64,000 bases of DNA from Artemia franciscana. Taxonomy: Eukaryota > Arthropoda > Branchiopoda > Anostraca > Artemiidae. Under the pieces are notes generated by a model. That model saw only the letters and a list, made by a program, of their open reading frames with translations. It was not told the origin of the DNA and did no database searches. The translations under genes and the position numbers were made by a program. Shown here piece after piece: positions 2,081 through 61,964 of the stretch (within the stretch, counting starts at the first letter, position 1; every line of letters starts with the position of its first letter). The DNA is taken from contig NW_027062693.1 in assembly GCF_032884065.1 (NCBI RefSeq), positions 1,599,631 to 1,663,630 on the forward strand, written 5' to 3'.

Positions 2081-5000
2081 ATCAAACAGTTCGTGGTAAC
2101 GAACACTAGTAGAGAGAGACCCGATTCAATAGTAACCAAAACTCTAAGAAAAGGGAATTATTAAAGGAAAAAGGATTTCAATAGCTTCATCAAAAGAATC
2201 GCATTTTAATTCTGATTTTAAATATATAAGTTTAATCTTGTTTAGTCTTAACCATCAAAAGTTACGAGCCTGAGAAAATTTGCCTTATCTTAGAAAATAG
2301 GGAGAAACAACCCCTAAAAGTCATATAATCTTAACGAAAATCACACCATCCGATTCAGCGTATCAGAGAACCCTATTGTAAAAGTTGCAAGTTCCTATCT
2401 ACAAAAATGTGGAGTTTTGTATTTTTTACCAGAAAGCAGATCACGGATGCGTGTTTATTTGTCTGTTTTTTTTTTCCCTAGGGGTGATCGTATCGACCCA
2501 GTGGGACTACAATCTTGCGATAGGGCTCATTCTTACGGAAATGAAAAGTTTTAGTGCCCTTTTTAAGTGATCAAAAAAATTGGAGGGCACCTAGGCCCCC
2601 TCCCACGCTAATTATTTTCCCTAAGTCACCTGATCAAAATTCTGAGATAGCCATTTTATTCAACGTAGTCGAGAAAGCTTACAACTATGTCTTTGGGGAC
2701 GACTTACTTCCCCAGAATCCCCGTGAGAGGGGTTACAAGTTACAAACTTTGACCAGTGCTTACACGTAGTAATGGTTATTTGGAAGTGTACAGACATTTT
2801 CAGGGGGATTTTTAGGCTGGGGGGTTGAGAAGAGGGGGATATGTTGGTGGATCTTTTCTTGGAGAAATTTGTTATGGGGGAAGAAACTTTTCATGAAGGG
2901 AGCGCAGGGTTTTCTAGTATTATTAAAAAAAACAATGAAAAAATAAATATAAAAGTTTTTTCAACTGAAAGTAAAGAGAAGCATTAAAAGTTAAAACGAA
3001 CAGAAATTATTACACTTATGATGGGCTCACCTCCTCCTTATACCCCGCTCTTTACGCTAAAGTATTTTTAGTAATTTCAAATATTTATTCTACGGCTTTT
3101 GTGATTCAGGGGTTATTCTTAAGAAATTGGAACAAAATTTAAGCTTAAGTGTAAAGAGCGAGGTACTGACGAGGGGGTGAATCCCCTTATATACGTAATA
3201 AAAATATGAGAATAGAGAATTCCGTTACGTTAGCTAATTTGTAAATGACGTATATCTTTTACTAATAAAAACATTCGTAAAAAATTAAAAGTTCTAGTTG
3301 CCTTTATAAGCACCAAAAAAATCGGAGGGCAACTAGGCCTCCTCCCCCGCTCCTTTTTTTCTCAAAATCATTCGATCAAAACTATGAGAACGACATTTAG
3401 CCACAAAAATAAATCTGCAAATTTCGTTTTAATTATTCATCTGCGGAGAGCCAAAAAAAACATTTATTGATTCAAAAACGTTGAGATTTTAAACAAAAAA
3501 AAAGGTTTTTTTAACGGAAAGTAAGGAGCGATATTAAAACTTAAAACGAACAGAAATTACTTCGTATATGAGAGGGGCTGCTTCCTCATCAACGCCCCGC
3601 TCTTTACGCTAAAGTTTGACTCTTTTTCTCAACTCTTCTTCTTAAAACAATAAAAAACTTTAGCGTAAAAAGCGGGACATTGAGGAGGAAAAGCCTCTTT
3701 CATATACGGAGTAATTTCTGTTCGTTTTAAGCTTTAATGTCGTTCCTTACTTTCATTTAAAAAAACTCGTTTTTTATTTAATTTCTGGACTTTTTTTTAA
3801 TTAATGCATGTTTTGATCTTGGCTGTCCGCACATAAATAATTAAAACAAAATTTGCATATTAGTTTTCTTTTTGGCTAAATGGCTTTCTCATAGTTTTAA
3901 TTGGAAGATTTTGAGAAAAAAGAAGAGAGAGAGGAAGCCTAGCTGCCCTCCAGTTTTTGATTACTTAAAAAGGCAACTAAAACTTTTAATTATTTTACGA
4001 ACACTTTCATTAGTAAAAAATAAACGTAATTTACGAATTAACTTACGTAAGGAAATTCCATATTCGTATGTTTTAATTATGTATATGAGGGAGTTCACCC
4101 CTCGTTGAAACCTCGCTCTTTACGCCAAAGCTTAAATTCTGTCCCAATTCCTTAAAAATGACCCTTGAATCACAAAGGCCATAGCATAACTAGTTGAAAT
4201 TACTAAAAATACTTTATCGTAAAGAGCGAAGTATTACGAGGAGGTAAACCCCTCATATACGTAATAGTTTCTGCTTGTTTTAAGTTTTAATGCTGCTCCT
4301 CACTTTCAGTAGAAAAAACTTTTCATATTTATTTTTTCATAGTTTTTTTAAATAATGCTAAAAAATCCTGCGCCCCCTTCATTGAAAGTCTCTTCCCCCA
4401 TGAGAAGTTTTTCCATGGAAAGATCCCCCCACGTAACCCCCCCCCCACCTCAACTCTCCCTCCCACACCAAACAAATCCCCCCGAAAACATCCGTACACT
4501 TCCCAGTAACCATTACTATATGTAAACACAGGTTAAAGATTGTAACTTGCAACCCCTCTCACGGGGAATGCGGGGGAGTAAGTAGTCCCCAGAGACAGAG
4601 TTATTAGGTTTTTCAACTATGGTAAATAAAATGGCTATCTCGGAATTTTGATCCGGTGACTTTGGGGAAAACATTAGCGTGGGAAGGGGCCTATGTGGCC
4701 TCCAATTTTTTTGGTAACTTAAAAAGGGCACTAGAACTTTTAATTTCCGTTAGAATGAGGCATCTTCCGACATTCTAGGACCACTGAGTCGATGCGATCA
4801 CCCCCGGGAAAAAAAACAAAAAACAAATAAACAGGCATCCGTGATTTGACAGAAGGCAAAAAATGCGAAATTCCACATTTTTGTAGATAGGAGCATGAAA
4901 CTTCTACAATAAGGTTCTCTGATACGCTGAATCTGAAGGTTTGATTTTCGTTTATATTGTATGACTTTTAGGGGGTGTTTTCCCCTATTCTCTAAAATGA

Positions 5001-5189
5001 GGCAAATTTTCTCAGGCTCGTAACTTTTGATAGGTAAGACTAATCTTGATGAAAGTTATATATTTAAAATTAGCATAAAAGTGCATTTTTTGATGTAACT
5101 ATCGGTATCAAAATTCCATTTTTTAGAGTTTCGGTTATTATTGAGCTGGGTCGCTCCTTACTACAGTTCGTTACCACGAACTGTTTGAT
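2081..5189. mobile_element. 3.1-kb palindromic foldback element
   Basis: Reading inward from 'atcaaacagttcgtggtaac' at 2081, the sequence is repeated in reverse complement, with substitutions and small indels, outward to 'cgaactgtttgat' ending at 5189. The arms are about 1536 nt (2081-3616) and 1534 nt (3656-5189), with a spacer of about 40 nt. Paired landmarks include the gttacgagcctgagaaaa block (about 2262 and 5005), the GGATGCGTG/CATCCG block (about 2445 and 4828), the 'gctctttacgctaaag' blocks beside the centre, and the 'aactgaaagtaa'/'ttactttcag' blocks. Each outer end holds the hairpin CAGTTCGTTACCACGAACTG (8-bp stem), changed at its last bases in the left copy. No transposase-like frame is present, so it would be non-autonomous. 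I cannot assign a superfamily. Foldback or long-TIR DNA element is the best description. Confidence 0.75.
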
Positions 5190-7310
5190 TAAATAAAAAA
5201 AAACAAGTTTTTTAACTGAAAGTAAGGAGCAACATTAAAACTTAAAACGAACAGAAATTACTTCGTATATGAAAGGGGCTGCTTCCTCATCAGCGCCCCA
5301 CTCTTTACGCTAATGTTTGACTCTTTCTCTCAACTCTACTTCTTAAAACAGTTAAAAAACTTTAGCGTAAAGAGCAGGGCGTTGATGAGGAAGCATCCCC
5401 TTTCATATACGAAGTAATTTCTGTTAGTTTTAAGTTTTAATGTTGCTCCTTTCTTTCAGTTAAAAAACTTGTTTTTTTTATTTAATTTCTGAACGTTTTA
5501 ATCAATGCCTGTTTTGATTTTGGCTCTCCGCCGAGGAATAACAATAACGAAATTTGAATATTAATTTTTTTTGCTAAATGGCTTTCTCATAGTTTTGATC
5601 GAATGATTTTGAGAAAAAAGGAGCAGGGGAGGAAGCCTAGTTGCCCTCCGATTATTTGGTTAATTAAGAAGACAATTAGAACTTTTAATTTTTTACGAAT
5701 ATTTTTATTAGTAAAAGATATACGTAACTTATAAATTAGCTTACGTAACGAACTTTTATATTTTCATGTTTTTTTTACATATATGAGGGGGTGCACCCCC
5801 TCGTCAGTACCTCGCTCTTTACACTAAAGCTTAAATTTTGTTCCAATTCATTAAGAATGACCCCTGAATCACAAAAGCCGTAGAATAAATAGTTGCAATT
5901 ACTGAAAATACTTTAGCGTAAAGAGCGAGGTATTAGGAGGAGGTGAGCCCCTTATATGTTTAATAATTTCTTTTCGTTTTAAGTTTTAATGCTGCTCCTT
6001 ACTTCCAGTTGAAAAAACTTATTCATATTTATTTTTTCATTGTTTTTTTTAATAATGCTAGAAAATCCTTCGCTCCCTCCATGGAAATTTTCTTCCCCCA
6101 TGACAAATTCCTTGATGGAAAGTTCCTACTCTTCTCGACCCCTCCCCCAACCAAAAAAATCTCCCTGAAAACGTATGTTCACTCTCCAATACCCATTACT
6201 ATATGTAAGCACTGGTCAAAGTTTGTAACTTGTAGCCCCTCCCACGGGGACTGTGGGGGAGTAAGTCATTATAGTTATAAGGTTTTTTGACTACGCTGAA
6301 TAAAATGGCTATCTCAGAATTTTGATCTGTTGACGTTGGGAAAATAATTAGCGTTGGAGGAGACCTATGTGCCCTTTAATTATTTTGGTCACTTAAAAAG
6401 GGCACTAGAACTTTTCATTTACGTTAGAATGAGCCCTCTCGCAACATTCTAGGACCACTGGGTCGATTCGATCACCCCTGAAAAAAAAACGATCCTAGAA
6501 AATACTGCGCTCCCTTCATGAAAATTTTCTTCTCCCATGACAAATTCCTCCAAGAGAAGTTCCCCCAACATATCCCCCTCTTTTCAACCCCCCTACCTAA
6601 AAATCCCCCTCAAAATGCGAAACACTTCCAAATAACCATTACTACATGTAAGCACTGGTCAAAGTTTGTAACTTGTAGCCCCTCCCAAGGGGACTCTGCG
6701 GGAGTAAGTTGTCCCCAAAGACATAATTATAAGCTTTTTCGACTACGTTGAATAAAATGGCTATCTCAGAATTTGATCAGGTGACTTTGGGAAAATAATT
6801 AGCGTGGGAGGGGGCCTAGGTGCCCTCCAATTTTTTTGGTCACTTAAAAAGGGCACTAGAACTTTTCATTTCCGTTAGAATGAGCCCTGTCACAAGATTC
6901 TAGTCCCACTGTGTCGATAAGATCACCCCTGGGAAAAAAAATAAATAAACACGCATCCGTGATCTGCCTTCTGGCAAAAAATACAAAATTCCACATTTTT
7001 TGGATAGGAGCTTGGAACTTCTATGATAGGGTTCTTTGATACGCTGAATGTGATGGTGTGGTTTTCGTTAAGATTCAATGACTTTTAGCGGACGTTTCCC
7101 CCTATTTTCTAAAATAAGGCAAAGTTTCCCAGGTCCATAACGTTTGATGGGTAAGACTAAACGTGATGAAACTTGTAATTTAAAATCAGCATTAAAATGT
7201 GATTCTTTTGATGCAGCTATTGGTATCATATCAAATTTTTTTTTAGAGTTCTGGTTACTATTGAGCCGGGTCGCTCCTTACTACACGTTCGTTACCACGA
7301 ACTGTTTGAT
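5190..7310 (+). mobile_element. Second foldback copy, left arm shortened
   Basis: Begins directly after the 3.1-kb palindrome. Only about 125 nt of left arm remains (about 5200-5322, starting at 'caagttttttaactgaaagt'). After a spacer of about 30-50 nt, a full right arm runs to 'ccacgaactgtttgat' at 7310. Left-arm remnant and proximal right arm still pair as a hairpin of about 270 nt (5201-5495). The right arm is longer than in the first copy because of an internal tandem duplication (6059-6932). No coding capacity is seen. Its head-to-tail placement with the first copy is notable. Confidence 0.7.
6059..6932 (+). repeat. Internal 437-bp tandem duplication
   Basis: The block starting 'tagaaaatccttcgctccc' at 6059 recurs as 'tagaaaatactgcgctccc' at 6496. 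Both run through the 'cattactatatgtaagcac' type segment, the 'gtttgtaacttgtagcccc' segment and 'aaaagggcactagaactttt'. The two copies differ at many positions, so the duplication is not recent. The chance frames at 6009-6290 and 6518-6751 are duplicates of each other, not genes. Confidence 0.75.
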
Positions 7311-10840: not shown

Positions 10841-11341
10841 TTGGTCACAAACCTAATTCCTTTGGTCACTCAAAAAGGGCACTAGAAATTTTAATTTCCG
10901 TAAGAATGACCCCTCACGCGACATTCTAGGACTACTCAGTCGATACGATCACCCCTGGGAAAAAAACAACAACAAAAAACGAAACAAAAAAACAAATAAA
11001 CACGCATCTGTCTTCTGGCAAAAAATGCGAAATTCCACATTTTTGTAGATAGGAGTTTGAAACTTCTACAATAAGGTTTTCTGATATGTTGAATTTGATG
11101 ATGTGGTTTTCGCTAAGATTGTATGACTTTTAAGGGATGTTTCCCCCTATTTTCTAAAATGAGGAAAATTTTCTCAGGCTTGTAACTTTTGATGGGTATA
11201 ACTGATCTTGATGAAACTTATATATTTTAAATCAGCATTAAATTGCGATTCTTTTGATGTAACTATTGATATCAAAATTTCATTTTTTTAGAGTTTTGGT
11301 TACTTAAATAATGACGAAGACCACACTGCCTTTCCATAATA

Positions 11342-11412
11342 CAGCAACAAAGGGGGAATAATGAGACTTTTTTCCCAAGACAGTGAACCAACAAAACCTA
11401 TTTTGAATATTT
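11342..11412 (+). repeat. Left inverted repeat of the Penelope-like element
   Basis: The sequence ending 'caaaacctattttgaatatt' is matched in reverse complement at 12333-12406. About 50 nt of the inner part are essentially identical, including 'cccaagacagtgaaccaac'. The outer 20 nt, around 'gaataatgag', are less conserved. Confidence 0.85.
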
Positions 11413-11418
11413 AGGTTA

Positions 11419-12120
11419 TTGCCTGTTATTGCTCAAAGATTAAAGATACATTCTTCTGAAGCCTTAAATCCCACACAAGTAAATAATTCAAATAAACCCA
11501 CAAACACGATTTACCTACCTTATATTCCGAAAATTACTTCAAAACTGAAAAAAGTTTGTTTAAAGAACAATTTATGTGTTGTGTTCACAACCAATTTAAG
11601 TATAACGAATCTTTTCAATTCTGGTAAGGATAAAACCCCAATTACTCGTCTACGAGGGGTGTATCAAATACCATGTAGTTGTGGAAATTATTACATTGGT
11701 CGAACCCACCAAAATTTAGGAACAAGATTGCAGCAACACAAAAAAAGTATTGAAAAAGCATTAAAATCTAAAAATAACTCCATATCTTTCGATTCAGCTT
11801 TAAGTAATCATATTTTTGAAAATCCACACCATTATGTTCTATTTAACAAAACAATTCTAATTAGCAATGACCTAGGAATCAAACAAACTATCCGTGAGGC
11901 AATCGAAATCAAACAAAACTTAAATAATAACACATCCCTAAATAGAGACTCGGGTGAATACACACTCAACCCTATGTACACAAAATTAATTATAGAAAAT
12001 AATGTAATTCAAAATAAAACAAAAGTAGGAACGAACACAAGCAAGCCCAATATCAAAAGAACTATCAGATTAGCTGCAGAGAAGGCAAATATCGCAATAA
12101 GAAATCATTCCAATTTTTAA
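11419..12120 (+). CDS. GIY-YIG endonuclease, C-terminal part of Penelope-like polyprotein
   Basis: Open for 233 codons, probably continuous upstream in the intact element, so the nominal start (a non-ATG codon at 11419) is not a true initiator. Residues about 80-97 hold the GIY-YIG core as G-V-Y-Q-I-P-C-S-C-G...Y-Y-I-G-R-T, followed by 'RLQQHKKSI' with the catalytic-type Arg. Further on come 'ALSNHIFENPHHY' and an 'REAIEIKQNLNNN' segment supplying the conserved Glu. The Cys pair inserted after GVYxI is typical of Penelope-like enzymes. Upstream, 'PYIPKITSKLKKVCLK' matches the linker that joins reverse transcriptase to endonuclease in this family. In complete elements the domain nicks target DNA for retrotransposition. 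This frame is intact but lacks its reverse transcriptase, so the copy is not autonomous. A related but broken piece lies at 24248-24440. Confidence 0.85.
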   Translation: MPVIAQRLKIHSSEALNPTQVNNSNKPTNTIYLPYIPKITSKLKKVCLKNNLCVVFTTNLSITNLFNSGKDKTPITRLRGVYQIPCSCGNYYIGRTHQNLGTRLQQHKKSIEKALKSKNNSISFDSALSNHIFENPHHYVLFNKTILISNDLGIKQTIREAIEIKQNLNNNTSLNRDSGEYTLNPMYTKLIIENNVIQNKTKVGTNTSKPNIKRTIRLAAEKANIAIRNHSNF

Positions 12121-12304
12121 TAAATGCAGTTAGTGAAATGAATGAACCTTTTTATCTTGCAAAATGTTAGCTTTTATCAGACAGTCTTGGCTGAACTTTT
12201 CCTTAAGAAGTAATGATGCCAAGGGTATTTAAAAAAAAAAACAAATGGATTTTTAACTGAGAACTTTTATTGTAAGTGTTTTATTGTTTTTTATTTTTAC
12301 TTTG

Positions 12305-12350
12305 CTGAAGACCACCCTTCGATATAGGGCCGAAATATTCAAAATAGGTT
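12305..12350 (+). ncRNA. Hammerhead ribozyme-like motif (degenerate)
   Basis: CTGAAGA at 12305-12311 fits the hammerhead core CUGANGA. It is followed by a stem-loop region with CCACCCT and AGGGCC, then GAAA at 12332-12335, then short complementary pieces before 'ATA'. Stem II would pair CCACCC with GGGCCG, with two mismatches. Stem I is not convincing in the linear sequence. Hammerheads in this position are known for Penelope-like terminal repeats. This copy is probably inactive or marginal. Confidence 0.35.
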
Positions 12351-12406
12351 TTGTTGGTTCACTGTCTTGGGAAAAAAGTCCTCATTATTCTCTCTTTTGT
12401 TGTTGT
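12333..12406 (-). repeat. Right inverted repeat of the Penelope-like element
   Basis: Reverse complement of 11342-11412, running 'aaatattcaaaataggtttt' through 'actgtcttgggaaaaaagtc'. It begins at the GAAA of the hammerhead-like motif and ends one base before the right target duplication. Confidence 0.85.
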
Positions 12407-12468
12407 GTTTTGGTTACTATTGAGCCGGGTCGCTCCTTACTACAGCGTCGACTACTATACAGCGTCGA

Positions 12469-14590: not shown

Positions 14591-16934
14591 ATTATGCTTT
14601 GCGAAAAACATTAATAATTTTCATACGTGACGGCTGGCAATATTGATGAGCCTTGCGGAGGTGGCACAAGTCTTTTAGGCCTTGCATTCTCATCTTAAAT
14701 GTGAGTCGAAGGGACGGCATTCTTTCCGCTTCGTTGTGGGGCCATGGAAGGGCCGGCAATTTCGCTATGCATAGACGCAGCATTCACGTCTGCAAGTCTC
14801 GATGGGTCTGCATCTTGGGCACTAGATATGAATGTTGAATGACATGCCCTTGTCTGTTTTAGGGTAAGGGTATTGGTCATAATCTTCCATAAATAGAAAA
14901 GAAATTTTTGTTTTTCATGAAGCAATTGGATTAAAATCATAGTTTCCTATTAATTTTACTTCTAGCAGTCCATAACCCCAAGCGTATCATCAAAATTCTT
15001 GTAATAAAACTAAATGATTTTGTTTTTCCAAATAACTTGAGCCTAATTTCAACATGATCCGGATTAAATTTGACTCACTTCTATTGCACCCCAGCCCCTA
15101 TATATTAATGTTATAACCTTTTCCTTCTCCAGCTTAAATTTTTAGCTTTCGAAGTAATTTTCACGGTTCACGAGGAAAAAATTAAGAAAGAAAAAAAATG
15201 TTTCGAAGAAAATCAAAGGAAATAGGCTTCAGCAGTTATTTAAGGAATTTGCAATCATTCCACTCCCTGGGAATTTTACTGAGGCCTAAGTACCTCAATT
15301 CTATGACAAGAATTCAAAATCAAGACAAAAATGCGACAGTCGATTGAGAGTACAGAGTTTCGTTTGCACCCAAGTACCCTTATTCACATTTATTTCCCTT
15401 AAGGCTGATAATATAGGCCTGCTTGGTGCATCGAAATACCCTCCCAGGACATTGTTTAGTCTTTAGACCCGGTCTCATTAACCCAACCTAACCCTTTTTC
15501 AAAATAGCAAAAAGTAGCTAAACTAGAATTTTAACAATTTTTGCTTATTTAGGGTACAATCCTAGGCATTTGCTTATAAAAACCGCTTTTCTGTGAGAAT
15601 TAGGGACAATAAATAGACCACACCAGAAGGTTTTCTTGGAGGAATAGTTATTTTTTTTTCTCTGTGAACTCTCCTTATTAACTACTAAATTACAAAAACA
15701 ATAATTACACACAACCGCCCTGGGGGAGGCTCAAAGAGCCTGATGTTGGACGGCTGCAATCCTCTGATTCTCAACCTAATTTAATAAGAAAAAAAAGAAA
15801 CTAAAAAAACGGAAACTAAAGAAGGACAAAACACTCTCACTCAATTACTCCTTAATACCAGAATATACATAAATAAAGGCTATTAATAGTCTTCTTCAAA
15901 TAGAATACTCCAAGATAGTTTTCTTGGAGGAATAGTTATTAAACATTATGACTAGTTTGAAGAAAATAGCAATTTTGAAATGTTCATGAGAGTTGAGTAG
16001 AGGGAAAACGGTTGCTTTTGATTTAGTTTAACATAACCCTCAACATTCTCCAAAGTTTCACCTTAATACCGTTAGAATTTTCAAATATAAATGCAAACAG
16101 TCTCTTTTGCTAATGTCAAATTTTTGCATATGAAGAACGGGCAAATATCGTAATTTACAATTCTTACCCTGCGACTGGGAAGGGGGGCATGTTATCCTTG
16201 GAGCCATAGGCATTAGAACTTTTGACTAGTTTGAACAAAGTGAAAATTTCAAAATTTTCACGAGAGTTGAACAAAAAGGCCAATGGTGGCTTTTGATTTA
16301 GATTGTTTGAATTTGACTCTTAACAAACGTTCAGTATAAATATACAAGATGTAGATGTAGAGTCATTCAGTTTAACCCAAATAGATGAGGCCGAAAACCG
16401 CGGTAGGACGGGTTAGTTCAAGAGCTATTTGGTTGTTTTTTATTTGTTTATAAATATGCATATATTTCGTCGGTGATAATAAGCACGGGGTTCCATAGGG
16501 AGCTTATGGTAGGCAAGCCACTTTGCCCAGGAAGGGAAATTAAAGCACTGAAACCCTATAGGCATGTTTGTATTCTTGTGATGAGCCCTTGTGTTAGATG
16601 GTCGCCTTTAAATTATTTGTTTGATTTATAGTTTTAATTATTCGGTATATGACAACTTATACTTAATTGCGACACGAGTGCCTGTCCATAGGTTATTCTT
16701 TGTGATTGAATTTGTATGGCTATGCTGTTTGACCTATATAATAGGATGGATGAGTAGGGGTAGGGCCTCATTCAAGTACTTATATATATATATTAATTAC
16801 TAAAGTCGGAAAACAGTCTTCCTTTCTCATTCTGTCTTTTTTTTTGTTTGTTTTTTTATCTGTTGTATGGTATGTGTTTGTTTCTGTTTTGTGCTGTTGC
16901 ATTGGTGATTTCCTTTTTCACTATAAAATTAAAA
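14591..16934. other. Unrecognised sequence with small duplications
   Basis: A locally less AT-rich patch at about 14640-14830 has an 81-codon minus-strand frame (14695-14940) without a known motif. The phrase 'ttttcttggaggaatagtta' occurs at about 15637 and again at about 15920. A block with 'tttgactagtttgaa' or its variant plus 'tgagagttga' occurs at about 15950-16030 and 16225-16300. A short (AT)n tract lies at 16783-16796. No gene could be supported. Confidence 0.4.
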
Positions 16935-18037
16935 AAAGAATAAGTTTTTTTAACTGAAAGCAAGAATCGAAATTAAAACTTGAAAGAAACATAAATTATT
17001 CTGTTTATGAAAGGGGCTGTTACCTTCTCAACACTTTGCTCCTTATGAAAAGGTCCTTATGGTTTATAAAATAGAGTTGTGAGAAAGATCAACCCTTAAC
17101 GTAGAGAGCTGGGCATTGAGATTGGGACAGCCCCTTTCATATACGAAATAATTTCTGTGCGTTTAAAGTTTTAATGCCGCTTCTTACTTTCAGCAAAAAA
17201 ATTTGTTTTTTATTTAATTCCTGAATATTTTTGAATTAATGCAGGTTTTGATTTTGGCTCACCGTAAATGAATAATTAAAATAAATACATATTAATTTTT
17301 GCTATTTCTTGCCAAATAGCCTTCTTACAGTTTTCAATGGACGATTTTGAGAAAGTAAGGGGTGTAGGAGGGGGCCTAATTGCTCTCCAATTTTTTGGTT
17401 ACTTAAAAAGGCCACTGAAACTTTTCAATTTCCTTAAGAACATTCTGATTAGTAATAAATATACTTAGCTTTTGAATTAACTTACGTAACAAATTTCTAT
17501 ATTCGTATGTTTTATCACTTATATGAGGGAGTTCTTCCCCTAGTCAATACTTCACTCTTTACGCTAAGAACTTTTGCGGTCACTTAAAAAGAGCACAAGA
17601 ACTTTTAAGTTCCTTTGAAATGAGCCAGTGACATTTTAGGACTACTGGGTCGATGCGACCACCCCTAAGAAAATAAATAAATAAAGACGCGTCTATGATC
17701 TTTCATCTGGCAAAAAACGCAGTATTCCACATTTTTGCAGATAGGAGCTTGAAATCTCTACACTAGGGTTCTCTAATAAGCTAGATCTGATTGTAGGATT
17801 TTCATCAAGCTTTTTAGTGGGTATTTACTCCTTTTTTGAAAAAAGTAAATTTTTTCAGGCTCTTAGCAACGTTTGATGGATATGACAAAACTTTATGAAG
17901 CTTGTAGATTAAAAATCAACATAAAAATCTGATTATTTTGATGTATCTCTTAGCATGAAAACTCTGTTTTTAGAGTATCAATTACTATTGAACTGGGTCT
18001 CTTCTCACTATAGTTCGTTACCACGGACTGTTTTGAT
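16935..18037 (+). mobile_element. Foldback-family copy, left arm shortened
   Basis: Starts at the same internal point of the left arm as the copy at 5190 ('agtttttttaactgaaagca'). It folds back at about 17040-17100, continues through the right arm to about 17565 ('ctctttacgctaag'), then jumps to the distal right arm from 'cacttaaaaagagcac', and ends with 'gttcgttaccacggactg' and 'ttttgattc' at about 18037. The jump is an internal deletion of about 800 nt relative to the 2081-5189 arm. The terminal hairpin has one mismatch (CGGACTG). Confidence 0.7.
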
Positions 18038-18049
18038 TCATTTGTTTTT

Positions 18050-18417
18050 AGAATTAAATAAAAAAGACACAAGTTTTTTTTACTGGAATTAAGGAGTGAC
18101 ATTACAACTTAAAACGACCAGAAACTATTCTGTATATGAAAGAGGCAATCCCCTCCTCAACCACTCTTTGCGCTAAAGTTTTAGTTGTTTTAAAAAGTAG
18201 AGTTGTGAGAAAGAGTCAAACTTTGGCGTAAAGATCGGGGTGTAGAAGAGGGCGACAGCCCCTTTAATATACTGAATAATCAGAAATATTTAAAATCAGA
18301 ATTAAAATCTAGTTCTTTTGATGTATACATTGGTATCAAAATTTCGTTTTTTGGAGTTTTGATAACTATTGAGTCGGGTCTCTCCATACTACAGCTCGTT
18401 ACCCTGAACCGTTTGAT
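18050..18417 (+). mobile_element. Short foldback derivative, head-to-tail with the previous copy
   Basis: Left arm remnant (about 18070-18175), spacer, start of the right arm (about 18215-18285), then a direct jump to the terminal segment 'aaaatcagaattaaaatct...' and 'gagtcgggtctctcc', ending 'ctcgttaccctgaaccgttt'. It is only about 360 nt long. Again the copy begins at the inner left-arm boundary a few bases after the end of its upstream neighbour, as at 5190. Confidence 0.65.
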
Positions 18418-22469: not shown

Positions 22470-24145
22470 TCCTAGCTTGAACAAGAGCTAAGGGCTCATA
22501 TGGCAATTGTGATGAGATCGGAAGAGCCAAGAGCTCATTTGGCATGAGTTCTAGCAAAGTTTTAAGAATCAATAGATTGCTTTAAAAGGAAAATTAGAGA
22601 CTTAATGCCGGTCGGGATTAAAAATAAGGGCTCTCAGTCATGAGATCCTTCGAAATTTCAAAATCCAATAAAATCCAATCGCCCACTCGTAAGTTAAAAA
22701 CACTTCAATTTTTCTAATTTTTCCTTCCCTTCAGTCCCCCAGATGGTCGAATAAGGGAAAACGACTTTACCAAGTCAATTTGTGCAGCTCCCTGACAAAC
22801 CCAATTATTTTCATCGTCCTAGCACGTCCAGAAGTACCAAACTCGCCAATGCGCTGAATCCTACCCCCTAACTCCCCCAAAGAGGGCGGATTCAGTCTGG
22901 TTACGGCAATTACAAATCTACGACAATTATAAGCGTTTTCGAATATTTCCAGTTTCCCCTTCCATTCCCCCAATCTCAACAGATCTGGTCGGGATTTGAA
23001 ATAAGAGCTCTGAGACGTACGTTCCTTCTAACAATCAAAATTCATTAAGATTCGGTCACCCGTTCTTAAGTTAAAAATACCTCACTTTTTCTAATTTTTC
23101 CAAATTAACAACTCGCAGCTCACCCAAATAGAACGTTACAATTATGTCAATCACGTAGACTATCCACAACTTGTGCTTATTCTTCCCATCAAGTTTAATG
23201 CCGATCTCTCCACTCTAAGCGATTTCCGAGATATCCAGTTTCTGGATTCTGGATTTCTGGTTTCCCCCTCAAACTCCCCCCACAAAGCGGATACGCTTTC
23301 TTTGCGAAGGATCCAGTCCGATCCTCGATCCAGTCGGGATTTAAAATAGAAGATGTGAGCTACAAGGTCCTTCTAAAATGAAATTTCATAAAGATCTGAT
23401 AATTTCTTCGTAAGTTAAAAATACCTAGTTTTTTAATGTTTTAAAATTTACCCTCCCCTCCCCCCTAAGATTTTAGGTTGCCCTCCAGCTCTCCCCAATG
23501 TCAAGGGATCAGGCTGGGATTTAAAATAAGAGCTCTGAGACACGACCTTCTTCCCAATATCAAATTTCATGAAGAGCTTATTACTCCTTCGTAAGTTAAA
23601 AACCTCATTTTTGCTAATTTTTCCAAATTAACCCTCCCCCTCCCAACTCCTCTAAAGCAAGCGGATCTGTTCCGGCTATGTCAATCACGTATCTAGAACT
23701 TATGATTAATTTTCCCACCAAGTTTCATCCCGATCCCTCGACTCTAAGCGTTTTCTAAGATTTTAGGTTTCCCCACTCCAACTCCCCCAAATGTCACCAG
23801 ATCCAGTCGGAATTTAAAATAAGAGCTTCGAGTCACTATATCCTTCCCAAAATCAAATTTCATTAAGATCCGATCACCCATTCGTGATTTGAAAAACCTC
23901 CTTTTTTTCTAGTTTTTTTTTTATTTAACCGTCCTCCCACTCCCCCCTCACCCCATATGGTTGAAACGGGGAAATGACAATTTTTAATTTAACCGGTCTG
24001 GTTTCTGATACTCCTGCCAAATTTCATCGTCCTAGCTTACCTGGAAGTGCCTAAAGTAGCAAAACCATGACACACCGATAGACAGACCCACAGAATTTGC
24101 GATAGCTATATGTCATTTGGTTAATACCAAGTGCTATAATATTAA
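22470..24145 (+). mobile_element. Hairpin-ended repeat family B, longest copy
   Basis: Composed of an entry segment ('ggctcatatggcaa...') and then about five diverged internal subrepeats. Each has 'aaatttcattaagatccgat' or a variant, 'gtaagttaaaaatacct' and 'ctaatttttccaaatta', separated by C-rich blocks ('ccccaaatgtca', 'agatggtcgaa'). It ends with 'cagaatttgcgatagctata' and a terminal hairpin 'catttggttaataccaagtg' at 24114-24133. The inverted copy at 48393-49395 has the same end and about three subrepeats. No protein is encoded. The unit is 1.0-1.7 kb, depending on subrepeat number. Confidence 0.7.
24114..24133 (+). repeat. Terminal hairpin of family B
   Basis: CATTTGGTTAATACCAAGTG forms a stem of 7-8 bp around TTAATA with one mismatch. 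Its counterpart at 48395-48414 is CACTTGGTATTAATCAAGTG. Its architecture resembles the terminal hairpin of the foldback family, though the sequence differs. Confidence 0.75.
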
Positions 24146-30748: not shown

Positions 30749-32692
30749 TTAAACACTGTACGAGGCCAAATCTACGTGAAAAACGAACTGAGCCGACTGT
30801 CTCGTCGTTCCGCCCGAAGAGGTCGGTTTTGGCAGCTTCATGATGACCTCTTCTTTTCGCACGAAGCTCATCTCTTCAGTTGCCGTGAATTTGCTCGATG
30901 GAGCTAATCGCTTCCAAAACTGAACTTGGAAACCATCAGATTCACAATCACACACAACTCCAACATAATTTCTGAAGCTCTTCTTGGTTGGCACTTTCAC
31001 AACCAAGAAATCCCCACTTTTTGGTTCGGTTCCATCAAGAAACTCCTCCTCCTCTGACCCATCCAAATGCAAGCTGTCATCACTTTCATCATCCAGCGCG
31101 ATATGTTCATCGAAGCTGTCTTCTCCGTTCCCAGGCTGTTTGGAGAGGTTTCTCTTTTCAGGCCGTTTTCTTTGAGCTTTCTTTTCTGATTTTTTTCTTT
31201 TCAACTCAAATTCTTCTTCCAGTCTGTTTTTTTCAGGTGTGTTCGTCAGAATTTTGGACTTTGTTCTTTTCCTAGACGTTTTTCCGTCTCTTGCATAGAA
31301 ACTCGCCTTAGGGTGAGGATGAACCGACTCTGGAGTCACTGGCATAGTCGCAGAAATCACTGAGCTACTGGTAGTTGGCAGCACGTCGTTATTCAAGCTC
31401 TCGTCGCCAGGGCTGGTTGATAGAACTGTAGACTGGCCTGTCATGGGAGACGTCTCTGGTGCTGGTCGGTCTGTCACAAAGGCGCTGAGAAAATCGTGAT
31501 CTTGGAAAACGTTCCTATTGAAAGGGTATATTCCTGTTTTTTGGAACCCGTTTAGTACGTTTTCCATGACGAAAGCTCTTGGAAAAGCGATTCCAACGAA
31601 TATTCCGATTTCATAAATGGTAATCCTCCTGTTTGGGTTCGAAATCATCCACAAGTTAGCTGCTTCATTGTAGTATCGCTTGAATGGCCCATAAACAGCA
31701 ACATCAAGAGGCTGCAGCTTGTGACTGCAATGTGGTGGAAGCCTTAAGACGTCAATGCCGTTTTCTCTGCAAAGATTAACCACGCTCAATGAGACGTGCG
31801 AATCATGGTTATCCACAATCAGCAGAAGTCGATTTGTGGGCGAGCAACTGGTTTGGGAGATCAGATGGCGTATCATATCTGAGAAGATTTCGGCTGTCAT
31901 CCATCCAGAGGGCTGGCATTTTCCTGTGCTTCCAGGGGGCGTGCCATTGAGAAAACTTTGAAGCCAGTTCACTCGTGGAAAGACAAAGAAAGGGGCTATC
32001 GACTGGCCAGCTGCGTTGATACACCCTACGACTGTTACCAGCGCCCCTCGCTCAGCCGAAGTAATGCGTCCAACTTGCTTTGATCCCTTTTCTGCAACCA
32101 CCTTTGGTGTCTTGTGAACGGTGGTTACTCCAGTCTCGTCAAGATTATATATTCTATTCGGCGGATACTTGTGCTTTATAAGCAGCTCTTCTAAATTATT
32201 GGAGAATTCGCTGACATTCGTCCTGTTGAAGCTGGTGGCTCTGGCAAGGCTTGTCGCTTCGGAGGACCTTAGGGAAAGCCCAACACGACTCATAAAGCTA
32301 TTCATCCAGTCTTTCCCTGCACACTTATTTTCAGTCCAGTTCTTCGGCATATTCTTCCCTTTGGCCTGGGCATATTCATATGCAAGCTGACCTGCTTCCT
32401 TTTTCGTAAGTCCATGATGCATGTGCTATGCCGTGATCATATAGTCCTTCAGAAGTATCTCTTCGTTTGCTGAAAACACACTTTTAAAGTTGAAGGTAGT
32501 TGCCAACTCCACTGATTGGGGATCTTCTGCTGCGTCGAGTTTTGCAACTGCTCTTCGAACTGTGCTTCGTGGCAAACCAACCTCTTTCGAAACTTTGCGA
32601 AGCGGCGAACCAGATTTAACTCGCATAGCAGCTGCTCTCAGTAAGTCCTGGTCGTGGAGACCGTGGGAGGTTTTTCTAGTATACTTTCCCAT
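30749..32692 (-). pseudogene. Pogo/Tigger-type transposase with one in-frame TAG
   Basis: Two frames in the same register: 32692-32429 (88 codons from ATG, ending in TAG at 32426-32428) and 32425-30749 (nominal 557 codons from an internal ATG at 32419). Read together they form one transposase of about 648 codons. The N-terminal part has a helix-turn-helix of the CENP-B/psq type (S-x-L-R-K-V-S-K-E-V-G-L-P-R-S-T, about residues 29-44). In the 557-codon part, residues 26-66 match the second DNA-binding region (W...G.DW...F..R). The catalytic triad is D95 (IYNLDETG), D204 (LLIVDNHDSH) and D240 (KLQPLDVAVYGPFK), 35 residues between the last two, as in pogo enzymes. Residues 381-430 are strongly basic, 435-465 acidic, and 469-535 form the usual C-terminal 'GDFLVVK...' segment. 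All key residues are present. The only visible defect is the TAG, so the copy may be dead by one point change or may be read through. Confidence 0.9.
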
Positions 32693-42328: not shown

Positions 42329-45300
42329 GCCCTTCCTAAAGCCCCTGCTGATTCTAGGTGGGAGTCAAAGGTCAAGCTAAGCCAGTATATCTCCATGGCG
42401 GTGATGGTAGTTACAGGCAATGAGGCTCGATCTTCCGTCCCTGGGCAGCAGAGGAAATCCGGCAGCGCACCTCAAAGCGGTGGAAGGGTGTAAACACCAC
42501 TGAGCTCCACGCCGAGCGATTTGGTGGCCAACGCGCTCCGGGTGACCCGCAAGACTGAAGACCTTGCGGTCAACTCTATTCCCAAGAAACATTGATGGAT
42601 CTGAGACCTAGAAGAAAAGTTGTAACAACTACGGCGTCCCCGGCAAGCGACGCGGCCCCCGTATTGGCGCTGGTGTCGAGAAGTAAACTAGCCAACCATA
42701 CTACGGCGTTCCCGGCAGGCGACGCGACTTTGAATATGGCGGCGAAGTCGAAAAATCTTTTCAACGCCATAAATCTAGGAAAACCTACCACAGTCATTAA
42801 ACAGGCAAAATCCAGGATAAATGTTGGATGCTGGAATGTAAGATCCGCTAAACAAGAAGCCACACAAGCTTTTCTTGTCCATGAGATGGAGAAGTACAAC
42901 ATAGACATACTCTGCATATCCGAGACCAGAATCTCCGGTTCTGGCTCTATAGTTATAACGGCTCCAGAAACACTACATCAGTTCCACTTTTTCTATTCCG
43001 GAATAGAAGATAATTCAGGACTCCATGGAGTTGGTTTCATCATGAACCAAAGAACCAGAAACGCTCTCCTAGAATGGGAACCAGTCTCCTGTAGACTTGC
43101 TAGAATCAGACTAAAAGGAAACCCTGCAAATGTGTCCATAATTTCTACCTATGCCCCCACCCGTGACGCTACTGAAACGACCAAGGATGATTTCTACGGT
43201 GAACTGCAGCAGTTGTCTTCTTCTATAGCCGCACGTGATTACTTGATTGTTGCTGGAGACTTCAACGCAAGAGTTGGTCCATCTGACCAGACCACAAGAC
43301 AAATCCTGGGAAAATTTGGACAGGGTCACAGATGCGAGAATGGGCAGAGGTTGGTAAACTATGCCTTGATCAACCACCTTGTTATCACCAATACCATATT
43401 TCAACACAAACCTAGCCACCTCTTAACTTGGCATTCAAATGACGGTGTCACTAAGGCCCAAATTGACTTCATTCTCGTACGCCAGCGCTGGAGAAGCTCC
43501 GTGCAGGACTCTCGCTCTTACAATGGCGCGGACACAGGCTCACAGTCTGGATCTGACCACAGTCTCGTCGCAGCAAAAATTTTGCTACGTCTTGCAATTC
43601 GAAGAAAAAACAAGTCAAAGGTCGGCTTCGATATCGGTAAACTTCAAGACAAAGAAGTGCGGCAGGCCCTCAATTTGGAACTAACTAACCGGTTTGACGC
43701 CCTCAGCTCTGATGGAAACCTAACTCCCGATAAGAGATGGGAGACCTTTAAAACCGTGATGACAGAGACTGCCGATGAGATCCTAGGCCGAGCAAAAATC
43801 AAACGACAACACTGGATAACTGCTAGAACCCTGTCAATATTCGGTGAACGAAGACAAAAGATGGGAGGCCTTAAAGAAGAAACGAAGGAGTTACGCAGAC
43901 AGGTAAAACGCTCTGTTCGGCAGGACCGCCGCCAAATGTAGGAAGATGCTGCCGAGTCATTAGAGAAAGCAGCACGCTTACATGATACCCGCAAGCTTTA
44001 CCAGATCCTGAAGGAATCCGTTGGTAAGAAAGCTGCTGTCTCAGAAATAATCAAAAACAGATCAGGAAAAATCATTAGTTGTCAGAAGGAACGTTCAGCA
44101 AGATGGAAGGATCAGTTTCAGCTCCTCCTGAACCCATCCCCTTCATCTACTCATGATGCCTTCCCACCTTCCGTCTCTAAAGAGCCTTATGATATCGAGC
44201 TGGATACACCGACCAGAGCCGAAATACTAAAAGCGATCAAAACCCTAAAAAACCACAAAGCCCCAGGTGAAGACGGCCTCCCCCCGGAACTATACAAACA
44301 ATGCCCTGAGGTCACTGCTGAACAGCTCCATGGCATTCTCGACGAAGTGTGGAGGACCAACACTTTTCCAAAAGACTGGAAGACATCAGTCATCCTCCCT
44401 TTCTATATGAAAGGAGACAAAACCGAATGCAAAAATTACCGCGGAATAAGTCTCATAGACATTGCCGTCAAAATATTCGGGATCATACTCTTGAACCGCT
44501 TTAAAGGGGCAAGGGAGGAAAGAACTCGAGGAAATCAAGCCGGCTTTCGACGAGGTAGAGGGTGTACTGATAATATCTTCGCCTTTCGCCTCATTATCCA
44601 GCAGTTTGAAAGATACAACCTACCCCTGATCTTGATGTTCCTGGACTTCATTGCTGCCTTCGAGTCTGTCACTCGCCAGAAACTTTGGAAGATCCTGGAG
44701 AATGACGGAATGCCGATGAAGTTTGTTGAACTGATGAAGGCATACTATGACGCTTCAGTGAGCCGAGTTAGAATCTATGGCGAAGAAACTGAAGAATTTC
44801 TGGTTGAGTTCGGAGTAAAACAAGGATGTGTCCTCTATCCGACTCTGTTCAATTATTGCATCGATTGGGTGCTTGAAAATGCTCTATCGTCTTATCCAGG
44901 AGCGCAGGTTGGACATAATCTCTCGCTGACTGACCTCGATTATGCGGATGATGTTGGCCTCCTGTCAGACCCTGTAGAAGCCAAAAACATGCTTGACAGC
45001 GTTGTGGCCTGGGCAGATCTGATCGGCTTGAAAGTCAGCACAGAGAAAACGAAATTCATGGCTATTAACCACGACACAGGACCATTCCCACTAACTATCA
45101 ACCAAGTTCAGCTGGAAAAAGTCAACCGTTTCACATACCTAGGCTCCCAGCTTTGTACTGACGGATCTTCCGACGCTGATATCCAACAGAGAATACAGAA
45201 AGCGCAGACAGTCTTTGCCTCTCTTCGGAAACCCTTATGGAATCGCCGTGAAATCAGTGTCCAAACGAAAGTTCGAATTTACATGGCACAAGTCCGCACC

Positions 45301-45802
45301 GTTCTCCTTTACGGGTGCGAAACATGGTCGGCAAAACTACAACAAGAGAATACACTTAAGGTGTTTGAGCATACTTGTCTACGAAGAATTCTCAGAGTAC
45401 AGCTACGTGACCGTATCTCCAACGTGAATATACGTCGAATGTGCAATATTCAGAGAGATGTTGTGCTCACTATTAAAGAACGCCATTTGAAATGGTTGAG
45501 CCATGTATTGCGGAAACCGCCAGAGTACCTGCCTCGCCAAATACTTCTAGTTGAGCCTATTAGCTACTGGAAGAAACGCCAAGGAGGACAGAGGAAGAAC
45601 TGGTGGAACCTGGCCAAGTCAGACCTTGAACCAATAGGGGGTTTCAGAAAATTTGGTCACAGATGGTCAACACAGTGGCTCGCCTTTGCAGAGCAGCTGG
45701 CACAAGATCGATCAACATGTTCCAAGAAGGTCTCTAAGATCATCGATGCCGGGCGAGGTGGAAACGCCTGATTCCCGCCACAAGTACAAGTAAGTAAGTA
45801 AG
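42329..45802 (+). mobile_element. Nearly full-length RTE-type LINE, 3.47 kb
   Basis: Bounded by the 12-bp duplication TAAACTTAAAAT. It has a 5' leader of about 265 nt, one endonuclease-reverse transcriptase frame (42595-45771) with a single TAG, a very short 3' region and a terminal AAGT tandem repeat (45782-45806) instead of poly-A. One-ORF layout, length of 3.2-3.5 kb and microsatellite tail are typical of the RTE clade. The element is less AT-rich than its surroundings and much better preserved than the Ty3/gypsy copy it interrupts, so it is younger. Confidence 0.9.
42595..45771 (+). pseudogene. RTE endonuclease-reverse transcriptase, one in-frame TAG
   Basis: One register stays open from ATG 42595 to the stop at 45769-45771, except TAG at 43939-43941. 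An in-frame TGA at 42556-42558 sets the upstream limit. The endonuclease (about residues 75-330) has 'NVGCWNVRSA', 'ILCISETRISG' (catalytic Glu), 'IVAGDFNARVG' and 'SGSDHSLVA', all with expected residues. After the TAG come an Arg/Lys-rich linker, 'LKNHKAPGEDGLPPELYK', and the reverse transcriptase with 'LDFIAAFESV' (motif A), 'GVKQGCVLYPTLFNYCIDWV' (motif B) and YADD at 44941-44952 (motif C). 'FTYLGSQLCTDGSSDADI' and 'LLYGCETWS' follow in the C-terminal region. The TAG lies between the two domains, where related elements usually have Trp, so a TGG to TAG change is likely. No other defect was found. Confidence 0.9.
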
Positions 45803-45994
45803 TAAACTTAAAATTATATCGCCTACTAATAGCCAAAAATATTGATAACCTAGAACTAGCAGTTCAGGAAAAAGAAAGAGCCGTAGAAATTGATTCAATT
45901 GTCCTACAGCATCGAAAACTATCAATAAACGCCGTAGAAAAAAAGACCCCTATAAAATCAAGATATTCCTCTCCGGGATTTTTCATCAAGTAAA
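45803..45994 (+). pseudogene. Ty3/gypsy Gag fragment, part 2, with deletion junction
   Basis: Begins with the right copy of the target duplication (45803-45814) and resumes the Gag frame ('LYRLLIAKNIDNLELAVQEK'), ending with 'VEKKTPIKSRYSSPGFF'. The zinc-knuckle and protease regions expected next are absent. Reverse transcriptase sequence starts within about 50 nt, so a deletion happened here. Confidence 0.6.
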
Positions 45995-47283
45995 AATAGC
46001 AGGGGAGGATGTTTACAAAACTGCGTTTTCTACAACAGAAAGTGGCTCTTCTGAATATTTAAAAGTACGGTTTCGACTAAAAACTAGTTCAAGTGCATTG
46101 TGTAGACCCCTGCTTCATTTATTAAGAGGTCTAAATAACATAATTCATTTTGTTGACGACGTCATAGCAATGGACAAAGACACAGAAGACCATTTAGTAA
46201 CCCTAGCAAAAGTATTTGAGAAATTCAGAGAAGGTAATTTAAAATGTAGACCAGAAAAAGTAAATCCTTTTCAAATAAAACTAAAGTTTTTAGGAGTAGT
46301 TTTAACACAAGTACAAATTTCGCCAGACCCTGAAAAGATAAAATCCGTTAAAAAATATACCCCCCCCAAACTATTAAACAATGACGAGGAATCTTAGATT
46401 TAATGAGTTATTTTCGAAAATTTATATGGAATGACGCACAGGTAGTGAAACCTCTAACGGACCTCACTAGAGGGAACCCACAAAAAATTACTTGGTCTAA
46501 AATAGCTCAGAATTCATTAGATCATTTAAAAAAGGCTTTAACCTCTTAACCTATTCTATCACTACCCGATTTCTAAACAGGACAATTCGTTGTTACAACG
46601 GATGCCTCAACCAAGGGAATTGGGGCGATTCTATCCCAAATAATAAATGGGGAAGAAAGAGTAATAGCGTACGCTTCTCGTACCCTCACACCCGGAGAAA
46701 GTAATTATTCTGCTACACAGCTTGAATTATTATCGATTATCCACCATTTGGACAAATTCAGACACTATTTGGTTGGCAGAAAACTTAAACTGCGTTCGGA
46801 TCACAAAAGTCTGCAATGTTTGCAAACTTTCAAAAAGCCGACGGGAGTACTCGAAAGGTGGATACTAAAAATCCAGGATTTGGATTATGAATTTGAACAT
46901 CTTAAGGGAAAACATAACGCCCCATGTGATTATCTTATTAGGTTTCCAGATATTACTCCCGCTGAAGATGAAAGCGAAGAAGTAAACACAATAAAAGCAA
47001 AATATGCTCCAAAGAATAAAAGTTTAAGAATAAAAACCAATAATTCGGTCGAGGAAGAATATAAAGACAGCCCGCTTTCCTCAAATAATATAAAAACATA
47101 TCAAAAGAAAGACAATACTTCCGCTGCTCTAATAGAATATTTCTTATATAATAAAGAGCTACCTGACAAAATGAAATCTTTCAAAAAAGAAATTGATAAT
47201 TATTATTATGATTTGGATGAAAGAATATTCTGTATAATAATGACCGATAATAATAACATAAATCAAACTTCCATTGTACCAGT
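45995..47283 (+). pseudogene. Ty3/gypsy reverse transcriptase (partial) and RNase H
   Basis: Reverse transcriptase starts mid-palm ('YKTAFSTTESGSSEYLKVRF') and has 'IIHFVDDVIAMDKDTEDH' (catalytic motif as F-V-D-D) and 'LKFLGVVLTQVQISPDPEKI'. The Gly-Tyr-type connection 'MSYFRKFIWNDAQVVKPLTD' follows after a stop near 46396. RNase H shows 'FVVTTDASTKGIGAIL' (first Asp), 'VIAYASRTLTPGESNYSATQ' with 'LELLSIIHHLDKFRHYLVGR' (Glu), and 'LRSDHKSLQ' (Asp), then 'LKGKHNAPCDYLIR'. The longest frame is 46748-47287 (179 codons). Stops before RNase H break it. Confidence 0.8.
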
Positions 47284-47950
47284 TTAACCCCAAATTTTAG
47301 AAAAACCCGCTTTTGAATTTTTTTATTCTGATGTGTGAGGTCACTTGGGATTAGATTAGACTTTCCATGGATTAAAACAATACTTTTTCGTCACTTCTGC
47401 CTTAACAAAGTTGAAGAATTATGTCAATACTTGTGAAACATGTAATTTAAGAAAGAATCCCCAAATCTACCCTAATCCAACAATCGGAAGGACTCTTACA
47501 GCCAGGTTTCCATTTGATATAGTTTCTTTTGATTTATATGGTACTAGCGGAGGATTACCCACGTCTAACAAAGGACACACCTGCGTACTTTCAGTAATCG
47601 ATCATTTTTCTGGTTTCACTTTGGCTAAACCTTTGAAAAACCAAAGTGCTTATACTACCTCAAAAGCCCTTGCTAAAATATTCCTTAATTTCGGTATTCC
47701 TAATACATTATTAAGTTACAATGGTCCTAATTTTGTATCAAAAGTGACCAAGGATTTAATGCCTTTTCTTCAAATAAATAAATTGGTAACGACACCCTAT
47801 CACCCCCAGGCCAATGGAAAAATTGAGAACAGACACAAGCTATTCTCTAATATTTTAAGCATTTATACAATGGAAAATGGGAGGGATTGGCACGAAACCG
47901 TACCTTATTTAACAAATGTGGTGATCACAAGCAAATGTTTCCTCACATGA
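47284..47950 (+). pseudogene. Ty3/gypsy integrase, catalytic Asp lost
   Basis: A broken HHCC zinc-binding start (H-L-G...H-G...'CETCNLRK', with stops near 47328 and 47360) precedes an open 179-codon frame (47411-47950). The catalytic core has 'IVSFDLYGT' (first Asp) and 'ALAKIFLNFGIPNTLLSYNG', where the second catalytic Asp expected before N-G is Tyr, and 'TTPYHPQANGKIENRHKLF' with the Glu. With that substitution the enzyme would be inactive. The frame ends shortly after 'HETVPYLTNV', so the C-terminal domain is missing. Confidence 0.8.
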
Positions 47951-48392
47951 AAGAGCGCGTTGTTATTCAAGATCGGGTAAGTTTTTTCCTGATAATTCTT
48001 TCAGTTACCTAGTACACTTCACTGGACCCGTTCCAGTGCCAAGACAAGGGGAGTTTCCTGTCAATCATTTTAATCACCGAGCTTAAACACTATACTTGGC
48101 TCAATGTCACTTATGATCAGATAAGTTTCCCTTAATCCTTTAGGGCCATTTGGGTTTACTCGCCTGACCGGGTCCAATGATATTCGAGATCAGACTTTTT
48201 CCGTTAATTCTTTTTGTTGCTGGTTTCACTGCATTGGACTCGGTCCGATTTTGCGCATGATAGGGTAAAATTTTCCCCAGTAGTTCTTACGGTCACCAAG
48301 TTGTCAACACTGGACGGCAAACTTTTTTTCTTCCTAGATACTTTTCGCTATGTGAAATAAACCACCCATGTTGTCTATGATTCTCTTTTTAT
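47951..48392. other. Diverged direct repeats, no gene
   Basis: A segment with 'attc..gat...gtt.tttcc..ataattctttc' and 'cactggac' occurs about three times in altered form (about 47965-48035, 48175-48245 and 48255-48325). This could be part of the 3' region of the Ty3/gypsy element. No further assignment is possible. Confidence 0.35.
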
Positions 48393-49399: not shown

Positions 49400-50030
49400 A
49401 AACTGCAGCGCTTCCCCCGGGGACTGTGGGGATTAAGTCGTTCTCAAAGACATAATTGATAGATATTTCGACAATGCTGAACAAAATAGTTATCTCAAAA
49501 TTTTGATCTGAAAAAAATTAGCGTGGGAGGGGGCCTAGATGCCCTCCAGTTCTTTTTATCACTTAAAAAGAACACTATAGCTTTTAATTTCCTTTCGAAT
49601 GAGCCCTCTCTCGAAATTCTAGGACCATTGGGTCGATACGAACACCCCTGAAAGAAAAAACCAAATGAACACGCATTCATGATCTTTCTTCTGGAAAAAA
49701 AATTACAAATTTCCACATTTGTGCAGGTAGGAGCTTGAAACCTCTACAGTAGGGTTTTCTGAACCGCTGAATCTGATAATGTGATATTCATTAAGATTCT
49801 ATGACTTATGGGGAGTGTTTCCCTATTTTTTCGAAAATAAGACAAATTTTCTCAGACTTGTAACTTTTAATTGGTAGGACTAAACTTGATAAAACTTATA
49901 TATTTAAATCAGCGTAAAATTCCGATCCTTTTTATGCATCTATTAGTATCAAAATACCGCTTTTTAGAGCTTCGATTACTATTGAGCCGGGCTGCATCTT
50001 ACTTACAATTCGTTATCACGAACTGTTTGA
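49400..50030 (+). mobile_element. Foldback-family right-end fragment
   Basis: Follows the distal right arm from 'ggggactgtggggattaagt' through 'tttttatcacttaaaaagaa' and 'tccacatttgtgcaggtagg' to 'attcgttatcacgaactg' and TTTGA at about 50030. The left arm and centre are absent. It directly abuts the family-B copy, as family B and foldback units do elsewhere in repeat-rich stretches. Confidence 0.7.
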
Positions 50031-61915: not shown

Positions 61916-61964
61916 GCATTTGTATAGTCTTATAACAACCATTTTTAGAGTTTAGTCAACGCCA

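Follow-up and report, generated by a model that had tools for sequence, protein, structure and literature searches.

A 3.1-kb inverted repeat in Artemia franciscana, probably composed of head-to-head copies of a non-autonomous Helentron/Helitron2-type element

The inverted repeat at positions 2081-5189 of the window, i.e., the 64,000-nt stretch of the Artemia franciscana genome analyzed here (G000:C107:1599631-1663630), raises the question of whether it is one palindromic object or a composite of smaller ones. A sequence-only reading had described it as a near-symmetrical palindrome of 3.1 kb with hairpin ends, unusual in its length and hard to keep. In a blastn comparison of the window with itself (minus strand), 2081-5189 aligned with 5189-2081 at 80.6% identity over 3148 columns with 78 gaps (2836 bits), while the best self-match among 100 dinucleotide shuffles of the same stretch reached 42.8 bits, confirming the inverted layout. 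The outer hairpin ends were found at 2083-2104 and 5166-5187, and the 22-mer hairpin end, allowing up to three mismatches, occurs five times in the window against a mean of 0.00 in 100 shuffles. The spacer of about 40 nt between the arms was also recovered, as the middle of an inner 300-bp palindrome (3489-3782). The label near-symmetrical masks a divergence between the two arms of about 19%.

This divergence bears on two ways of explaining the locus. Palindromes and repeats are frequently misassembled, and the repeat might be an assembly artefact; a false inverted join would, however, give near-identical arms, and the same type of junction is seen again at a second locus (L030, described below), which makes an artefact very unlikely indeed. 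A functional long-hairpin RNA locus feeding a small-RNA pathway, for which the inverted layout would speak, is also highly improbable, because the arms have diverged to an extent that would interrupt their pairing at many places.

Across the genome (1,270,528,402 bases in 6468 contigs), 1520 nt of the left arm gave 48 matches on many contigs, the longest of them at 86-88% identity (best 40 of 26,792 candidates). In most of the 20 regions of 9.5 kb taken around the best 20 non-self matches, a unit running from TCAAACAG to ...TTTATTTAAT is present in complete copies, either alone or clustered. A consensus of 1705 bp was built from 27 copies and part copies outside the window, to which element 1 (the left arm) is 90.5% and element 2 (the right arm) 87.7% identical; its longest open frame comprises 93 residues, so that an otherwise complete element has no coding capacity. 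Each arm is a non-coding mobile element of about 1.7 kb that also stands alone elsewhere in the genome.

The hairpin end of the element begins with TCAAA, followed by CAGTTCGT-GGTA-ACGAACTG, which form a terminal hairpin with an 8-bp stem and a 4-nt loop located 5 nt from the end; seven or eight of the eight pairs are kept in 16 out of 18 complete copies. The opposite end is a 300-bp palindrome (consensus 1409-1705, 93% identical to its own reverse complement) with a spacer of about 40 nt, carrying ATTAAATAAAA/TTTTATTTAAT at both its inner and outer edges and finishing in ATTTAA. Furthermore, the 13-mer AGTAAGGAGCGAC is found at consensus 28-40 and, inverted, at 1661-1673 of 1705, approximately 32 nt from the palindromic end. 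At least 11 of the 13 bases of this inverted repeat are present at both ends in 17 of the 18 complete copies, the exception being element 1 of the window with 10 bases at one end. Solo palindromes lacking a body also occur (L010, 1486-1771 and 2802-3128). An exact search with the 22-base hairpin end gave no match in viral contigs or in GTDB genome contigs, a result that covers exact matches only and for which same-genome records may be missing.

The ends being defined from full copies, their insertion sites could be compared with two empty sites, neither of which shows a target duplication. In one case (L013) a host stretch exists in two copies, one empty (GCAAAA^TTAACC) and one with the element, and in the other (L012) the element is nested within another element (AGTGY^TTACATA). 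Over 15 complete copies, the longest word shared between the flanks had a mean of 2.0 compared to 1.89 in shuffled pairs, a value reached by 35% of 500 shuffles. The base preceding TC is A in nine and T in six of these 15 copies, and the empty sites read A^T and Y^T rather than a strict TT. With a query continuing past the hairpin end, 34 out of 40 scored places end no more than 9 nt from it (best 40 of 10,829 candidates), the other six being Helentron-linked loci (see below), and with a separate query none of 40 scored places extends more than 4 nt beyond it. Matches ending this sharply mark the hairpin end as a genuine boundary of the mobile unit. On these grounds each arm can, with good confidence, be assigned to a dispersed family of non-autonomous rolling-circle transposons among the non-canonical Helitrons, a family that would insert before T without target duplication.

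On the plus strand of the window the order is body 1 (+), palindrome A, body 2 (-), palindrome B and body 3 (-), i.e., three bodies but two palindromes. The body of element 1 occupies 2081-3486 (consensus 1-1407, 91.6% identical to the consensus body), with its hairpin end at 2081, a terminal hairpin at 2083-2104 (plus strand) that matches CAAACAGTTCGTGGTAACGAAC exactly and forms six of eight stem pairs, and a subterminal inverted repeat at 2108-2120 (plus strand) with 10 of 13 bases. Palindrome A (3489-3782), the 300-bp palindromic end common to elements 1 and 2, is 91.9% identical to consensus 1409-1705, and its spacer has the same orientation as expected for element 2 and the flipped one for element 1. 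The body of element 2 follows at 3783-5189 on the minus strand (consensus 1408-1, 86.8%), with its hairpin end at 5189, an exact 22-mer match with all eight stem pairs at 5166-5187 and, with coordinates taken from the sequence, a subterminal inverted repeat of 13/13 bases on the hairpin-end side at 5150-5162 (both minus strand). Adjoining this hairpin end, palindrome B (5188-5486, 93.7% identical to the consensus palindrome) forms the palindromic end of element 3, and its spacer is in the orientation usual for that element. The first part of the element 3 body covers 5487-6489 (minus strand, consensus 1408-380, 90.5%), and 6492-7310 (minus strand, consensus 836-1, hairpin end at 7287-7308) either continues it or is a fourth piece. 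As consensus 380-836 occurs twice in this region, either part of the element was duplicated internally or a second copy has been joined to it.

Overall, 16 rows of the window match the consensus, 14 of which are pieces beyond the two arms, and none of these overlaps any of the 27 listed stop-to-stop frames of at least 110 residues, in agreement with the earlier claim of a dispersed non-coding family that recurs in the window. Besides the two pieces of the element 3 region (5188-6489 and 6492-7310), they are located at 762-911, 1230-1385, 1415-1520, 1521-1662 and 1664-1700, at 10855-11304 (minus strand, consensus 493-51, 87.6%) and 12407-12445 (consensus 62-24), in a cluster of older fragments at 16928-18417 with 75-85% identity (16928-17567, 17569-18033 and 18286-18417 on the minus strand, 18052-18280 on the plus strand), and at 49404-50030 (minus strand, consensus 649-2, 81.4%). 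A search of the window with Rfam returned no match at gathering scores.

Several other repeats and genes share the window with this family. In the region 10855-12445 a frame with a GIY-YIG match (11407-12120), which we take to be probably a Penelope-like element, separates two pieces (consensus 493-51 and 62-24) that belong to a single family copy; about 12 bp of the family element (51-62) are present on both sides of it, which looks like a target duplication. A second dispersed repeat family is found at 22477-24139 and 48389-49393, mutually inverted with 79-83% identity in the two longest matches, and also touches 1-168. In addition, 30749-32425 (minus strand) holds a 558-residue open frame with a DDE_1 match (4.1e-21), presumably a pogo/Tigger-like transposase, and 42559-47950 holds an Exo_endo_phos frame of non-LTR type, a long next frame and then an RT_RNaseH frame of an LTR-type element. 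A Glyco_transf_41 match at 55355-55693 (plus strand, 4.4e-35) likely belongs to an O-GlcNAc transferase-type host gene. In much of the last 7 kb (56597-64000) a 23-bp unit, ATTTGTATAGTTTTGTCACATCC or one of its variants, is arrayed in tandem, with longer periods of, for example, 46, 69 and 302.

How the two arms came to face each other was approached with a tree of 34 bodies, in which the three window bodies were compared with other copies. Body 1 was placed in a group of 20 rows (support 96/88), body 2 in a group of five (100/100) and body 3 in a group of seven (100/98), and this distribution over three supported groups argues for independent insertions of the arms and against an inverted duplication. 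Body identity between elements 1 and 2 is 82.3%; none of the 30 comparisons involving element 1 gave a lower value, whereas element 2 is less similar to some other copies, with identities down to 80.8%. On this evidence the two arms inserted independently, and the notion of a single palindromic object that is hard to keep was not borne out. Fold-back (snap-back) copying that starts at the palindromic end and duplicates one copy in inverted orientation has taken place elsewhere in this family: at L029 (2632-3370, on C2) the mirror image of a body piece of 221 bp is 99.1% identical to it, compared to at most 89.4% among the other copies to hand, and represents a recent fold-back duplication at the palindromic end. 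For the window, however, such an origin is quite improbable given the low identity of its bodies and their placement in different supported groups, unless gene conversion rewrote a whole arm.

Junctions elsewhere in the genome were surveyed with a 511-nt query across the centre, which found the body on both sides of the palindrome at three of 40 scored places (the window, C2 and C12) and on one side at the other 37 (best 40 of 8507 candidates); these counts do not represent a genome frequency, because only the best candidates were scored. They too speak against a single palindromic object. The C12 locus (L030) is a second head-to-head case, with 81.8% identity over 1782 columns, and, among 28 long palindromes listed, none of those lying in the 20 fetched regions is flanked by bodies head-to-head on both sides. 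The family has two routes to long palindromes, of which the window represents head-to-head insertion. In the parts of the open-licence PubMed Central literature that were covered, no report of head-to-head Helitron palindromes was found.

These data also bear on a known class of transposons with a comparable outline. Foldback elements (Galileo and others) carry large inverted arms around a short spacer, and the repeat might accordingly be read as one DNA transposon of foldback type (in the manner of Galileo, FB or MULE), whose terminal inverted repeats would measure 1.5 kb and which a DDE transposase would move as one unit; the long arms, the short spacer and the lack of coding capacity resemble such elements. 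In most fetched regions, however, an arm with its own two ends stands without a partner arm, the body lies on both sides of the palindrome at few of the scored places, no target duplication was seen, and the arms fall into different groups of the tree; each arm here behaves as an independent element, unlike the arms of foldback elements. Such a unit is therefore improbable, and membership among foldback or long-TIR DDE transposons was rejected on the absent target duplication and the separate origin of the arms. Taken together, 2081-5189 is a real long inverted repeat, most probably made of two old head-to-head copies of a non-autonomous Helentron/Helitron2-type element.

The proposed course of events starts with copies of different subfamilies that would land side by side in opposite orientation and come to share one palindromic end, giving rise to the window palindrome. 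The orientation of the spacer is a weak sign that element 1 may have lost its own palindrome, and palindrome A is assigned to element 2 only weakly, because the spacer is flipped in four of 26 bodies examined. When element 2 was removed in silico, the flanks joined to a continuous family copy, in keeping with an insertion of element 2 where the body of element 1 met its palindrome. Palindromes A and B resemble each other, however, and recombination of two palindromes would leave an identical picture, so the palindrome of element 1 may have been lost by either route. Movement of the copies would presumably be driven by a Helentron-type Rep-helicase.

Helitron-type proteins are abundant in this genome: with PF14214, 150 of 150 scored places were above the cut-off (best 150 of 7435 candidates), and passages of PMC11492255 give a share of 8.81% Helitrons for the A. 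franciscana genome. Canonical Helitrons with a 1663-residue open frame were found at L031 and L032, 99.9% identical to each other over 5715 columns; these copies (L031:418-6132 and L032:377-6091) show an STPRs match at the start of the open frame and look young. As partners they were rejected, since their CTAG ends differ from the ends of the family.

With a second profile, PF20209 (DUF6570), all 59 candidates were scored and 47 matches obtained, and six of these loci (C6, C10, C3, C116, C4112 and C11) were examined in part. The C4112 element has a 2446-residue open frame with UCH, PIF1 and Exo_endo_phos_2 domains in the two parts examined, together with a QQRGSPHIH stretch that we take to be Rep-like, and is a Helentron. 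A family hairpin end is located approximately 1.07 kb before this open frame and points at the gene, and a family hairpin end is likewise present at the DUF6570 locus of C11. A 1201-nt query joining the hairpin end to the Helentron upstream stretch matched all or nearly all of its length at six places (C11:44626500, C12:31163132, C16:705936, C16:18510186, C2876:6378 and C4112:8280) with 82-100% identity, one of them covering 1-1155; a seventh matched, at 76%, only the part beyond the family end, and 33 further places of the 40 scored matched shorter parts. With a second query the six linked loci matched all 700 nt at 90-100%, the family part being about 84% identical to ordinary copies. A DUF6570 match follows approximately 1.7-2.4 kb further on in five of the six, with none listed for C12. 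The six loci may in part be alleles (C4112 and C2876 lie outside the large contigs). From these sequence matches, the family appears to be linked to a Helentron through its hairpin end, joined to the Helentron upstream stretch.

Among the Helitron and Helentron loci examined, none was found to combine a coding element with both ends of the family. In the 3.6 kb after the gene of the C11 Helentron no family end was present. A joined query for the palindromic end scored 40 places, and at the four Helentron loci among them it did not match that end; a further query had none of the six linked loci among its 40. If anything, these two results speak slightly against a palindromic end at the Helentron loci. 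The pieces examined from C6 (L033, L034, L037, L038) contained no family end, L034 showing a single weak match to the family interior (68.5% over 108 columns), and those from C3 and C116 (L044, L045) contained no hairpin end. On C10 (L035, L036, L039, L040) a different hairpin flanks the gene on both sides; upstream of the gene, a hairpin end accompanied by 147 bp of family sequence is embedded in a further family copy, and in L036 the body/palindrome border is matched over 56 columns at 78.6%. L036 also carries, downstream of the DUF6570 gene, an inverted repeat of 98.4% identity over 312 columns (416-727 and 895-1205), so that Helitron2-type elements of this genome may have long inverted repeats in their vicinity.

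The locus illustrates that a kilobase-scale palindrome can form without inverted duplication, through clustering of a transposon with one palindromic end. For one non-autonomous A. franciscana family, the anatomy and a lead to a coding partner can now be given. A more speculative and rather unlikely extension is that the 300-bp palindromic end might be a two-way rolling-circle start, with pairs sharing an end acting as double units that launch both ways, and that the family might be a Helentron front piece in which copying would end prematurely at an internal hairpin and, where it reads through, take the Helentron gene along, as at the six linked loci. If so, fold-back growth as at L029 would be a by-product of a single-stranded intermediate, and a shared palindromic end working in both directions would have consequences for the way Helitrons initiate and terminate.

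Canonical Helitrons have a 5' TC and a 3' CTRR with a hairpin about 11 nt upstream, and insert between A and T. The family has the TC start, but its far end, ATTTAA, is without CTRR, and canonical membership was rejected accordingly; the canonical Helitron of L031 and L032, likewise of the rolling-circle group, ends in TC...hairpin...CTAG^T, unlike the family. Closer likenesses are found among non-canonical Helitrons, where, in passages of PMC4067079, HINEs are described as non-coding, with subterminal inverted repeats of 12-15 bp, a palindrome or hairpin near one terminus and T-rich target sites left unmodified. The family resembles these HINE/DINE-1 elements in its subterminal 13-bp repeats, its hairpin at one end, its non-coding nature and the absence of target duplication, and differs in that its far end is a 300-bp palindrome with the repeat about 32 nt in. 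The same passages mention neighbouring Helitron copies for HINE/DINE-1 and place the 5' inverted repeat of mite HINEs 2-4 nt from the terminus, a spacing that the family does not show. Helitron2 elements, as presented in parts of PMC5148889, possess asymmetric terminal inverted repeats and hairpins at their termini, and FoHeli1/2 of Fusarium start with TC and a hairpin, end in ATTTT and carry an inverted repeat of about 12 bp, one repeat lying 38-51 nt from an end. The spacing of the family therefore excludes the mite layout, but not the Helitron2/Helentron group. Like FoHeli1/2, the family begins with TC and an immediate hairpin, has a repeat tens of nt from its far end and ends A/T-rich in ATTTAA; unlike FoHeli, which codes for a Rep-helicase, it lacks this gene, and the parts of PMC5148889 that treat FoHeli do not describe a 300-bp palindromic end. 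Overall, the comparison fits a new family of the non-canonical Helitron kind (Helitron2/Helentron, HINE) with an unusual palindromic end.
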